Part shown: positions 24,013 through 29,155 of the stretch, piece by piece | Layout of the letters: each line of letters starts with the position of its first letter | Numbering within the stretch: the first letter of the stretch is position 1 | Assembly: GCA_029979305.1 (NCBI GenBank) | Contig: JAPOHV010000005.1 | Coordinates: forward strand, 1 to 32,366 | From: Mycobacteriaceae bacterium | GTDB lineage: Bacteria; Actinomycetota; Actinomycetes; Mycobacteriales; Mycobacteriaceae | Reading direction: 5' to 3' | DNA: 32,366 bases | Position numbers and translations under genes: made by a program | Notes under the pieces: generated by a model | Told to the model about the DNA's origin: nothing | What the model saw: the letters and a program-made list of their open reading frames with translations, nothing else | Databases searched by the model: none

Positions 24013-24936
24013 TCAGGGCAGTAGCCGCTGCAGTTCGGTGAGCCACGGAACGGCCACCGCGATGGTGGGTATCACCAGCACCGCCGCGGCGGCGAGGTAG
24101 GCGGCGAGCGCCACCGCGACACTGTTGGCCGGCCCGGACAGCCGGCGCACCCGGATCACCGTGCTGGGACCGCCGGCGGCCAGCGCCCCGGCGGGGGTGG
24201 GAGCGCACGCGCAGGCGACCAGCGCCCGGGCCAGCGGCCTGGGCCCGGTGTGTCGGACTGCGGCGTCGTCGGCGAGCAGCTCGACCAGCAGCGCCACGGC
24301 GTTGAGCGCGCTGCCGCTGCGCACGAACCGGGGAAACGCGGTGTGCACCGCGACGAAGGCCTCCAGCACCAGATCGTGACGGGCACGCAGGTGGGCGCGC
24401 TCATGGCGCAGGATCGCGGCCAGTTCGGGTTCGCTCAGCGCCGACAGCGTCCCCCGGCTCAGCACCACTCGGGCTCGCACGCCGGGCAGGCAGTACGCCA
24501 GCGGCGCCTCGACGTCGAGCACTCGGACCTCGCCGTGTTCGCGGCGGTGCTCGCCGAGCAGGTCGACCATCATCCGGTGTCGGGAGCGCCGGCGCCGGGT
24601 GCCGATCGCCACCTGCAGGCCGGAATGCACCAGCCGCGCGCCGATCACCACCGTCAGCGCGAGTACCGATGCCGCACACAGCCACAGCGGCCAGCCCAGC
24701 GCCGCGATCTGCTCGCCGACATCGGCTGTCGGGCGGCCGTCGCGACCCGGAACGAACAAGTGTGCGGCCAGCGCCAGGCCGGCGCTGAAGGCGGACAGCA
24801 CGGCGGCGACGGCGATCGCTTGCCACAGCACCACCGCCGCGCGCGGTGCGCGCATCGGCCAGCAGGCCCTGGCCAGCGCCTCCGGTACCGGGCCGGCCAG
24901 CGCCAGGGCGAGGACGGTGAAGGCCAGCGCTGACAC
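24013..24936 (-). CDS. M56-family (BlaR1-like) membrane metalloprotease (Rv1845c-like)
   Basis: Multiple TM segments; zinc motif LAAILRHERAHLRARHD (HExxH); directly downstream of blaI-like gene. Confidence 0.88.
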   Translation of the reverse strand: MSALAFTVLALALAGPVPEALARACWPMRAPRAAVVLWQAIAVAAVLSAFSAGLALAAHLFVPGRDGRPTADVGEQIAALGWPLWLCAASVLALTVVIGARLVHSGLQVAIGTRRRRSRHRMMVDLLGEHRREHGEVRVLDVEAPLAYCLPGVRARVVLSRGTLSALSEPELAAILRHERAHLRARHDLVLEAFVAVHTAFPRFVRSGSALNAVALLVELLADDAAVRHTGPRPLARALVACACAPTPAGALAAGGPSTVIRVRRLSGPANSVAVALAAYLAAAAVLVIPTIAVAVPWLTELQRLLP

Positions 24937-24996
24937 GTTTGACAGTCTCTCCCAGCCGATGGCCGGGCGCTGCCAGATCGACGAGAGGAATTCGTC

Positions 24997-25386
24997 TCAG
25001 TCGGAGCGGTGCCTGACCTCGAGTTCGGCCAGGGCCCGGCGCAGGGCGTCGGCTTCGTCGGCGCCCACCCGCTCGACGAAATGGACCAGCGCGGCCCGCC
25101 GGTCGCCGGAGTCGATCGCCTGGTCGAGCGCGTCGACCATCAGACCGGCCACCAGTTCGTCGCGACCAGCGGTCGGCGTATAGCGGTGGGCGCGGTCGTC
25201 GCGGATCTGGACGACCAGGTTCTTGCGGGCCAGCCGCTGCAGCACCGTCATCACGGTGGTGTAGGCGAGGTCGCGGTGGGCGGCCAGCGCCTGGTGGACC
25301 TGACGGACCGTCTGCGGCCGCTCGGCGCCCCACAGCTGGTCCATCACGGTGCGTTCCAGGTCTCCCAGACCGATCAGCTTGGCCAT
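24997..25386 (-). CDS. blaI: BlaI/MecI-family transcriptional repressor (Rv1846c-like)
   Basis: MAKLIGLGDLERTVMDQLWGAERPQTVRQVHQALAAHRDLAYTTVMTVLQRLARKNLVVQIRDDRAHRYTP; start at ATG 25386. Confidence 0.93.
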   Translation of the reverse strand: MAKLIGLGDLERTVMDQLWGAERPQTVRQVHQALAAHRDLAYTTVMTVLQRLARKNLVVQIRDDRAHRYTPTAGRDELVAGLMVDALDQAIDSGDRRAALVHFVERVGADEADALRRALAELEVRHRSD

Positions 25387-25430
25387 GGCCTCATCTCCCC
25401 GTCGAGGGTACCCCCGGTTTACCCACGGTT

Positions 25431-25545: not shown

Positions 25546-25956
25546 GTGGACCACGCAAACACTCCGGACGCACTGTCCGCCGCTTTCGACGCCGAGATCG
25601 GGCTGGTGTACACCGACGTGACGCCCGACGGGGTGACGGCCGAACTCACGGTCAAACCGAGTCTGCTGCAGCCGATGGGCATTGTGCACGGCGGGGTGTG
25701 GTGTGCCGTCGTGGAGTCGCTGGCGAGCGTCTCGGCCTACACCTGGCTGTCGGCCAACGGCGGGGGGAACGTGGTCGGGGTGAACAACAGCACCGACTTT
25801 CTGCGGGCGGTCAGCGAGGGAACCGTCCACGGCGCCTCCGAGCCGGTGCACCGCGGCCGGCTTCAGCAGCTGTGGCTGGTGTCCATTCGCGACGAGCGGC
25901 AGCGCCTGGTGGCCCGCGGGCAGGTGCGGTTACAGAACCTTCAAGCCCGGTCGTAA
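25546..25956 (+). CDS. PaaI-type hotdog-fold thioesterase (Rv1847-like)
   Basis: VDHANTPDALSAAFDAEIGLVYTDVTPDGVTAELTVKPSLLQPMGIVHGGVWCAVVESLASVSAYTWL...GVNNSTDFLRAVSEGTVHGASEPVHRGRLQQLWLV; GTG 25546 preferred over ORF start 25009. Confidence 0.9.
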   Translation: MDHANTPDALSAAFDAEIGLVYTDVTPDGVTAELTVKPSLLQPMGIVHGGVWCAVVESLASVSAYTWLSANGGGNVVGVNNSTDFLRAVSEGTVHGASEPVHRGRLQQLWLVSIRDERQRLVARGQVRLQNLQARS

Positions 25957-27333
25957 CTGGTGGTCCGCGGCGTGGTCCGGGCCCTGGGCCAGTCGCAGGA
26001 CCAGTCGCGCGCCGCCCGTCGGGCTGGTCTCCAAGGATGCTGTGCCGCTGTGTAACTCGGCCTGCTGTGCCACCAGCGCCAGGCCCAGCCCGGAGCCGGC
26101 GTGGGTGGCTGTCGATCCGCGGGAGAACCGCTCGAAGACCGCGGCGCGTTCACCTTCGGGCACGCCACTGCCGTTGTCGTCGACGGTGACCTCCACCGCG
26201 TCCGGTAGGCGGCGCGCCGCCAGTCGCACCTCGGTGGCCCCACCGTGGCGCACGGCGTTGGCGATGGCGTTGTCGATCACCAGACGCAGCCCGGCCGGCA
26301 GGCCCGTCATGACAACCGCCGGTGAAGGCACCAGGGAGACAACGAGATCGGGGTAGGTGCGTTCGGCGTCGTGTGCGGCGCGGTCGAGCAGTTCGGCGAT
26401 GTCGAAGGACACGAAGTCGTCGGCGGTGGTGAGTTCGCCCTGCGCCAGCCGTTCCAGGGCGGTCAGGGTGGCCTCGATGCGGCTCTGGGTGCGGATGGTG
26501 TCGCCCAGCGCCTCCTGCCGGCCCTCAGCGGTCAGGTCCAGGGTCGACAGCACCTCGAGGTTGGTGCGCATCGCCGTGAGCGGGGTGCGCAACTCATGGG
26601 AGGCGACGGCTGCGAAGTCGCGGGCCGACTCCAGAGCGGCCCGGGTCCTGGCCTGCTCGTCGCCGATGCGGGCCAGCATGCCTTCGACCGCCTCACCGAT
26701 CTCCACCGCCTCGCTGACGCCCCGGACCTGAACCTCCTCCGGTTTGGACTGGGCGTTGATGGCGCGGGCCTGCTGGGCGAGCAGCCGGAACGGGTCGATC
26801 ATGATCAGCGCGAAGAACCAGCCGATCACCACTGTTCCGATGATCACGCCGCCGCATATCAGCACGACCCGCCAGTGCAGTTCGGCGATCCTGCGCTGTG
26901 TCTCCGCCAGCGGCGCGCCGAGGGCGATCGACGCGACTCCGACCGAGAACGTGCGCACCCGGTACTGGACGCCGTCGATGCTGGTGTCGGCGTAGCCGTC
27001 GGCGAGCTCGGGCAGGACGACATCGGTGGGCATCGAGATCGTCGTCTTGCCCGCGCGGATGGTTCGCACGAGATTGCCGTCGGGACTGGGTGTTCCGGCA
27101 GCCGACGGCTCGGACAGCAGGGTGCTGAAGTCACCGAGGCTGCTCACCGAATCGAGCCGGCGGTCCAGTTGGCTGTACTGGTCGTTGGTGACTCCGACCC
27201 ACACCCAGGTGCCCAGCGTCAGTACCAGCACGACGACCGACAGTGCCGCGACGATGACGATGGTGCGCAACGACAGCATCCGGGTCGGCAGGCGTTGCAG
27301 CAGTCGGTAGACGAGTTCTCGGGGTCTGACCAT
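25930..27333 (-). CDS. PrrB-like sensor histidine kinase
   Basis: Two TM segments, HAMP, H-box FAAVASHELRTPLTAMRTNLEVLSTLDL, N-box GLRLVIDNAIANAVRHGGA, VDDNGSGVPEGERAAVFERFSRGS, GSGLGLALVAQQAELHSGTASLE; very similar to recalled mycobacterial PrrB. Confidence 0.93.
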   Translation of the reverse strand: MVRPRELVYRLLQRLPTRMLSLRTIVIVAALSVVVLVLTLGTWVWVGVTNDQYSQLDRRLDSVSSLGDFSTLLSEPSAAGTPSPDGNLVRTIRAGKTTISMPTDVVLPELADGYADTSIDGVQYRVRTFSVGVASIALGAPLAETQRRIAELHWRVVLICGGVIIGTVVIGWFFALIMIDPFRLLAQQARAINAQSKPEEVQVRGVSEAVEIGEAVEGMLARIGDEQARTRAALESARDFAAVASHELRTPLTAMRTNLEVLSTLDLTAEGRQEALGDTIRTQSRIEATLTALERLAQGELTTADDFVSFDIAELLDRAAHDAERTYPDLVVSLVPSPAVVMTGLPAGLRLVIDNAIANAVRHGGATEVRLAARRLPDAVEVTVDDNGSGVPEGERAAVFERFSRGSTATHAGSGLGLALVAQQAELHSGTASLETSPTGGARLVLRLAQGPDHAADHQLRPGLKVL

Positions 27334-27357
27334 GGCGGTGCGATCGCCGCGGGGCGG

Positions 27358-27735
27358 CTAGACGGCGTCGGCGAGGATCAGGGCGCGCTGCGGGAGGTTG
27401 CAGCGATCACGGAAGTCCCGGGACGGCTGACGGATGGCCTCCAACTCGGCGCGCACCTGCGGGTTGTCGGTCAGGTAGTCCTCGGTCTCGTCGCGCGCAA
27501 CGGTTTTCGGCTGACCCTGTAGGCCGGTGAAGAAGTCGTTGACGTCGGGATGGGTGAACAGATACGTCGACATGGCCGCTGAGATCCCGGCCATGATGCC
27601 GGTCATGTCCGCCGTCGTGCAGCCCGGCGGCAGGTCGTCGTCGGCGGCGGCGATACCGGGCGTGCCCAACAGAACCGCGACGGCGCCGGCCGTCACCGCC
27701 GAGGCGCGAATCAGCCTTCGAATCCCGGGTGGCAT
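27358..27735 (-). CDS. secreted hemophore-related (Rv0203-like) protein
   Basis: Signal peptide MPPGIRRLIRASAVTAGAVAVLLGTPGIAAA; CTTADMTGIMAGISAAMSTYLFTHPDVNDFF...LTDNPQVRAELEAIRQPSRDFRDRCNLP matches the mycobacterial hemophore family pattern with two Cys; GGGGG SD. Confidence 0.75.
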   Translation of the reverse strand: MPPGIRRLIRASAVTAGAVAVLLGTPGIAAADDDLPPGCTTADMTGIMAGISAAMSTYLFTHPDVNDFFTGLQGQPKTVARDETEDYLTDNPQVRAELEAIRQPSRDFRDRCNLPQRALILADAV

Positions 27736-27781: not shown

Positions 27782-29155
27782 TCACGAGGCGGTGATCTCG
27801 GCGTCCTCGATCTCCTCGACGATCTCCTCGAGCTGCTCGATCCTGGTGCGGGCGTAGGCCTGCTGTTCGGTGATGGTGAGCTGGCCGCGGTGACTGCCGA
27901 TGAAAGTGGTGAGCCATGAGAACGCGGTGACGATCCGCGCCTTGAATCCGACCAGGTAGACCAGGTGCAGGAAAAGCCATGCCAGCCAGGCGATGTAGCC
28001 GCTGAATTCGATCGGGCCGACCTTGACCACCGCGGAGTGCCGCGAAACGGTGGCCATCGAACCCTTGTCGAAGTATTTGAACGGTTCCCGGGCTGCCGGA
28101 TCGGCGCCTTTGAGCTCGGCCTTGATCAGCTTTGCCGCGTAGCGGGCGCCCTGGATGGCGCCCTGTGCCTGGCCCGGGACGCCGTCGACCAGCACCATGT
28201 CGCCGACCGCGAAGACGTTCGGATACCCCGGCACAGTCAGATCGGGTTGCACCCGGATCCGCCCGGCGCGGTCGACCTCGGCGCCGGACTGGTCGGCGAG
28301 GATTTGCGCCAGCGGGCTGCCTGAGACGCCGGCCGACCAGACTTTGGTCTGGCACTCGATGCGGTCGACGGTGCCGTCGCTGTGCTTGACGGTGACGCCG
28401 TTGCGATCGACGTCGGTGACCATCGCGCCCAGCTGGATCTCCACTCCCAGCTTCTCGAGCCGCTGCGCCGCTTTGCGGCCCAGCTTCTCGCCCATCGGCG
28501 GCAGCACCGCCGGAGCGGCGTCGAGCAGGATCACCCGAGCCTTGGTGGAGTCGATGTGCCGGAAGGTGCCCTTGAGGGTGTGATCGGCCAACTCGGCGAT
28601 CTGGCCGGCCATTTCGACTCCCGTGGGGCCGGCGCCGACGACGACGAAGGTCAGCAGCTTGGCGCGCCGCTCCGGATCGCTGGACCTTTCCGCCTGCTCG
28701 AACGCGCCGAGGATGCGGCCGCGCCCCTCAAGCGCATCGTCGATGGTCTTCATGCCCGGGGCCCACTCGGCGAAGTGGTCGTTGCCGAAGTAGGACTGAC
28801 CGGCGCCCGCGGCGACGATCAGCGAGTCGTAGGGGGTGCGGTAGGTGTGTCCCAGCAGTTCGGAGTCGACGGTCTGGTTGGCCAGGTCGATGTCGGTGAC
28901 CTCGCCGAGCAGGACCTGGCAGTTTCGCTGCTTACGCAGGATCACCCTGGTCGGCGGCGCGATCTCCCCTTCGGAGATGATGCCGGTCGCCACCTGGTAC
29001 AGCAGCGGCTGGAACAGGTGGTGGGTGGTCTTGGCGATCAGCTTGATGTCGACGTCGGCCCGCTTGAGTTTCTTGGCCGCGTTGAGACCGCCGAAGCCCG
29101 AGCCGATGATCACGACCTTGTGCTTATCCGACGGAGTCGCGCCGGGATGGGTCAT
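27782..29155 (-). CDS. ndh: type II NADH dehydrogenase (NDH-2)
   Basis: KVVIIGSGFGGLNAAKKLKRADVDIKLIAKTTHHLFQPLLYQVATGIISEGEIAPP; VVVGAGPTGVEMAGQIAEL; C-terminal membrane-associated segment. Confidence 0.95.
   Translation of the reverse strand: MTHPGATPSDKHKVVIIGSGFGGLNAAKKLKRADVDIKLIAKTTHHLFQPLLYQVATGIISEGEIAPPTRVILRKQRNCQVLLGEVTDIDLANQTVDSELLGHTYRTPYDSLIVAAGAGQSYFGNDHFAEWAPGMKTIDDALEGRGRILGAFEQAERSSDPERRAKLLTFVVVGAGPTGVEMAGQIAELADHTLKGTFRHIDSTKARVILLDAAPAVLPPMGEKLGRKAAQRLEKLGVEIQLGAMVTDVDRNGVTVKHSDGTVDRIECQTKVWSAGVSGSPLAQILADQSGAEVDRAGRIRVQPDLTVPGYPNVFAVGDMVLVDGVPGQAQGAIQGARYAAKLIKAELKGADPAAREPFKYFDKGSMATVSRHSAVVKVGPIEFSGYIAWLAWLFLHLVYLVGFKARIVTAFSWLTTFIGSHRGQLTITEQQAYARTRIEQLEEIVEEIEDAEITAS

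Follow-up and report, generated by a model that had tools for sequence, protein, structure and literature searches.

The locus analysed here raises the question of which regulator a PrrB-like histidine kinase may serve when no response regulator is encoded beside it, and whether the hemophore-like gene next to it belongs to the same signalling system. The window, a 32,366-nt stretch from a draft genome of a Mycobacteriaceae bacterium, carries on its minus strand (25930..27333) a gene for a membrane histidine kinase of 467 aa, here called PrrB2. The preliminary description had taken this kinase to be intact, and the analysis agrees: the open reading frame is exact, HisKA and HATPase_c domains are found by Pfam, and the H (HELRTP), N (DNAIANAV) and G (GSGLGLALV) boxes are all present. 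Translation and alignment place the codon of the phospho-acceptor His246, within the H box, at 26596..26598, the partner-contact region of the DHp (+11 to +19 after the His, TNLEVLSTL) at 26539..26565, and the extracytoplasmic sensor loop (residues 49-153) at 26875..27189, all on the minus strand. The nearest solved kinase is PrrB itself (1ys3/1ysr), which matches the ATPase domain with E=3e-64, the runner-up structure reaching 4e-21. A full-length structure prediction of low confidence (pLDDT 64, pTM 0.34) models the loop as a five-strand domain flanked by two membrane helices. The dN/dS of the kinase gene against close relatives is about 0.15, indicating purifying selection. The C-terminus of the window copy is about 15 residues longer than in the aligned relatives.

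The absence of a response regulator from the window, also claimed beforehand, was borne out by a tblastn search with PrrA, in which no hit fell below E=0.7. On the same strand, 24 bp upstream of the kinase, lies the gene of a 125-aa hemophore-like secreted protein (27358..27735), whose family assignment holds as well: it matches Pfam MHB (PF16525) at 2.4e-29 with 101.8 bits vs a cut-off of 27.4, and also NCBIfam MTB_hemophore. Missing from the preliminary description is ndh, encoding a type II NADH dehydrogenase (27782..29155, minus strand), which stands 46 bp beyond the MHB gene on the same strand and is the first gene of a likely ndh-MHB-kinase transcription unit. Scanning for promoters and terminators yielded no useful promoter, and the interval separating the MHB gene from the kinase showed no terminator; the weak minus-strand stem-loops among the results fall inside genes. 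The 3' end of the kinase gene overlaps a convergent, Rv1847-like 4HBT thioesterase gene (25546..25956, plus strand) by 27 bp (25930-25956). Genomes resembling that of M. litorale have urease genes downstream of the kinase (L049, 6988-12778); these are absent from the window (compared at 25546-27333), where the kinase is followed directly by the convergent thioesterase gene. A pair encoding a BlaI-type repressor and an M56 peptidase (24013-25407) is found beside the locus, a position kept across most of the freshwater members of the ndh-locus clade.

Of the 199 Mycobacterium genomes sampled, about 154 encode a relative with 67-84% identity to the window kinase, clearly apart from the classical PrrB (PrrB1), which is about 58% identical to the window kinase. 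A tree built from 132 kinases resolves two sister clades, PrrB1 with 43 rows and a support of 99 and PrrB2 with 69 rows and a support of 100, outside which the MSMEG_0246 type (PrrB3) forms a third clade. The window kinase falls outside PrrB1, in the sister clade, and is not orthologous to the PrrB of the prrAB locus; tree and identity likewise rule it out as an MSMEG_0246 orthologue. Judged by tree and alignments, PrrB2 is an old duplicate of mycobacterial PrrB. In M. smegmatis, a third prrB appears to be annotated. The PrrB2 kinases encoded at ndh, including that of the window, form a single clade (22 rows, support 100) with members in Mycolicibacterium litorale, M. rhodesiae, M. vinylchloridicum and many freshwater MAGs. 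In every locus of this clade that was examined, ndh lies 5' of the kinase, and the two genes are probably co-transcribed there. Outside the ndh-locus clade, for example in M. colombiense, M. scrofulaceum, M. peregrinum and M. vanbaalenii, PrrB2 occupies other loci, with neither a PrrA-like regulator nor an MHB gene adjoining it. In the literature outside subscription journals, we found no second PrrB and no orphan PrrB-like kinase. One study describes prrB as conserved throughout the mycobacteria (PMC6898941), and published statements of this kind may merge two paralogues.

The genome from which the window derives has both types. A classical PrrB, 58% identical to the window kinase, is encoded on another contig (C44:63-1400), so that the window kinase is a paralogue, as first proposed, and not the only PrrB of the genome; a sole PrrB would have overturned the proposal. 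This PrrB1 gene sits at the contig end, and the arfC-like gene that usually converges on it comes next. With 2.6 Mb in 249 contigs and a completeness of 72%, the assembly is a draft in which prrA was not found (best match 52%), as expected if the gap upstream of C44 contains it; the PrrA-PrrB2 pair is then not visible in this genome. The same assembly contains an MSMEG_0243-like MHB gene (L009 1480-2089, G000 C25) with 50% identity to the window MHB and no PrrA-like regulator within about 260 bases after it, and a pair of the MSMEG_0244/0246 type seems to be absent from the draft.

The partner of PrrB2 can be approached through other genomes. In nine genomes that were checked, no PrrB1 gene follows prrA, which directly adjoins a gene of the arfC-like or FKBP type, and the sole kinase of the PrrB type is PrrB2. 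Nine others encode a PrrA of 92-97% identity followed directly by a kinase of the PrrB2 type, an adjacency to prrA that is not seen in the window. The residues expected to contact the regulator agree with these arrangements. The DHp of PrrB1 and PrrB2 is 81% identical, compared with 87-88% within the groups and 53% to PrrB3; positions +11, +12, +14, +15, +18 and +19 are common to PrrB1 and PrrB2 at 98-100%, and every copy of PrrB3, a kinase with a regulator of its own, departs from them at all six. Outgroups of the PrrB family likewise retain +11 T and +15 V, and shared ancestry probably explains part of the similarity between the PrrB1 and PrrB2 DHp. PrrA remains 96-98% identical to the reference in genomes with PrrB2 only, and the consensus of its receiver is unchanged. 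The sensor loops of PrrB1 and PrrB2, on the other side, share 36% identity. As read from these alignments, the pattern is one of the same output with a different input. The earlier suggestion that the kinase signals through PrrA is strongly favoured by the prrA loci without PrrB1, the prrA-adjacent PrrB2 genes and the matching contact residues. We also considered a true orphan kinase, which has lost its own response regulator and signals to an unrelated one such as MprA. PrrB2 does lack an adjoining regulator in most genomes, and in vitro work on tuberculosis has been cited as support (PMC9765234). However, the kinase directly adjoins prrA in some genomes and is the only PrrB paired with PrrA in others, its contact residues are those of PrrB1, and the genomes do not encode PrrA-like regulators in numbers that would point to an additional partner, which together make this alternative quite improbable. 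A dedicated PrrA duplicate for PrrB2 was rejected as well, since the PrrA-like regulators, assessed as counts per genome, are compatible with PrrA itself, the MSMEG_0244 type and a further regulator at roughly 52%.

The distribution of the two kinases points in the same direction. At a strict threshold, PrrB1 is absent from 24 of the 199 genomes and additionally from G121, whose hit is of the PrrB2 type. All genomes without PrrB1 carry PrrB2, except one ambiguous MAG of 63% completeness (G126). One of the 24, the complete genome G172, has a PrrB1 gene that is frameshifted into two frames (L076 1498-2619); this broken prrB may have become a pseudogene recently or may reflect an error in sequencing. 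In all, PrrB1 is missing from about 23 genomes, and each of these retains PrrB2. Conversely, all 44 genomes without PrrB2 have PrrB1 (44/44), and none of the 199 Mycobacterium genomes is well assembled and devoid of both. For this reciprocal absence Fisher's test gives p=0.003, uncorrected for phylogeny, and as the genomes counted are related, the independent events are fewer than the genomes. On the PrrB2 tree, used as a stand-in for the species tree, PrrB1 switches between present and absent at least six times. Genome G125 contains, besides an intact prrAB, a fragmentary second prrA-prrB in several frames (L077, C1:5954889-5955967). The absence of PrrB2 from 44 genomes that keep PrrB1, and the extended C-terminal tail of the window kinase, could also be expected of a phosphatase-biased or decaying copy that mainly restrains PrrA or is heading for loss. 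Such a fate is hard to reconcile with the low dN/dS, the intact catalytic boxes and the retention of PrrB2 as the sole PrrB in several lineages, and we regard it as the least probable of the readings considered.

The MHB gene is under purifying selection too (dN/dS 0.2-0.3 vs close relatives), and its product begins with a hydrophobic, signal-like segment, as read from the sequence. The protein aligns with the structure of Rv0203 (3MAY) over residues 39-119 at E=9.8e-8; the Tyr-x3-His motif of Rv0203 is retained, the third heme-ligand His aligns with a Tyr, and the score is below the NCBIfam Rv0203 equivalog cut-off (47.8 vs 120 bits). The preliminary description had suggested a possible heme- or redox-responsive module. 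In one reading, a conserved heme-sensing module, the secreted protein would bind heme outside the membrane and act as a ligand or accessory sensor of the kinase, much as in the three-component system MSMEG_0243/0244/0246. The 24-bp spacing, the retention of the pair in most ndh-locus loci, the selection on the MHB gene and the conserved Tyr-x3-His motif speak for such a module, as do the in vitro heme binding of MSMEG_0243 and the co-transcription of its gene with a PrrA/PrrB-like pair (PMC7516205). However, the MHB gene is gone from G111, G127, G194 and several further freshwater MAGs that keep ndh and an intact kinase, and it is truncated beside an intact kinase in G024; in most genomes with a lost or truncated MHB gene some 15-130 bp separate ndh from the start of the kinase. 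Outside the ndh-locus clade PrrB2 has no MHB neighbour at all, MHB proteins are a multi-copy family, and the phenotypes reported in M. smegmatis were independent of iron source (PMC7516205). Confined to the ndh-locus clade, the MHB gene is a lineage-specific neighbour that can be dispensed with, and a heme module is unlikely, if somewhat less so than the orphan kinase. The co-occurrence of the two genes, named beforehand as a check, fails in several close relatives and elsewhere in the genus. A pairing of this kind, of MHB protein and PrrB-like kinase, has also been described before (PMC7516205), though for a kinase of a different clade that has a regulator of its own.

Respiration and energy metabolism are governed by PrrAB, a conserved regulatory pair that is essential in M. 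tuberculosis. In our preferred reading, to which we give a probability of about 80%, PrrB2 would be a second input to PrrA, able to replace PrrB1. Its diverged extracytoplasmic loop would sense an envelope signal other than that of PrrB1, and the kinase would phosphorylate, or dephosphorylate, the single and almost invariant regulator PrrA. Both kinases would feed PrrA in most species, and several lineages would have lost PrrB1 and come to rely on PrrB2 alone. In the ndh-locus clade, the position of the kinase just downstream of ndh would tie it to respiration under the control of PrrA, and the MHB gene between them may be an optional passenger or accessory. We infer the phosphotransfer from PrrB2 to PrrA, the signal of PrrB2 and the co-transcription of the ndh unit. 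In M. smegmatis, cytochrome bd, bc1-aa3 and ATP levels are under the control of PrrAB, and ndh as the steady neighbour in the clade fits this role of PrrA in respiration (PMC6898941). It also appears likely, if slightly less so than the second input itself, that an unrecognised second PrrB lineage has repeatedly and independently replaced the classical PrrB as the sole PrrA kinase, and that the 'PrrB' of some lineages, possibly Abscessus-Chelonae, is non-orthologous to that of M. tuberculosis and responds to another signal. Our guess is that several genomes of 4.6-5.1 Mb with a divergent, prrA-adjacent PrrB2 represent the Abscessus-Chelonae group. The PrrB of a model or clinical mycobacterium should accordingly not be assumed to be the orthologue of the M. 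tuberculosis protein, and PrrB2, with a frozen output interface and an altered sensor loop, offers a natural experiment on sensing by PrrA kinases.

Among known systems, PrrA-PrrB (Rv0903c-Rv0902c, MSMEG_5662/5663) is the closest. PrrB2 shares its architecture, an ATPase domain close to 1ys3, a DHp of 81% identity and identical partner-contact positions, and in some species adjoins prrA; it differs in forming a sister clade (support 99/100) with a loop of 36% identity, in lying usually away from prrA and in being additional to PrrB in most genomes. MSMEG_0243/0244/0246 (PMC7516205) resembles the window locus in that an MHB gene adjoins a PrrB-family kinase in an apparent operon. Its kinase, in contrast, belongs to the third clade, with 42-44% identity to PrrB1 and different DHp contact residues, its own PrrA-like regulator lies between the MHB and kinase genes, where the window has none, and it is located near mmpL3/mmpL11 rather than ndh. 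Rv0203 (3MAY) shares with the window MHB the aligned region and the Tyr-x3-His motif, whereas the window protein has a Tyr for the third heme-ligand His and is not encoded near mmpL genes. In M. tuberculosis, the paralogous sensors DosS and DosT, with different inputs, converge on the one regulator DosR, as experimentally demonstrated. Although these sensors are of an unrelated type, with cytoplasmic heme GAF domains, and the regulator is a different one, PrrB1 and PrrB2 would resemble them as two paralogous kinases that bring different inputs to a single regulator.
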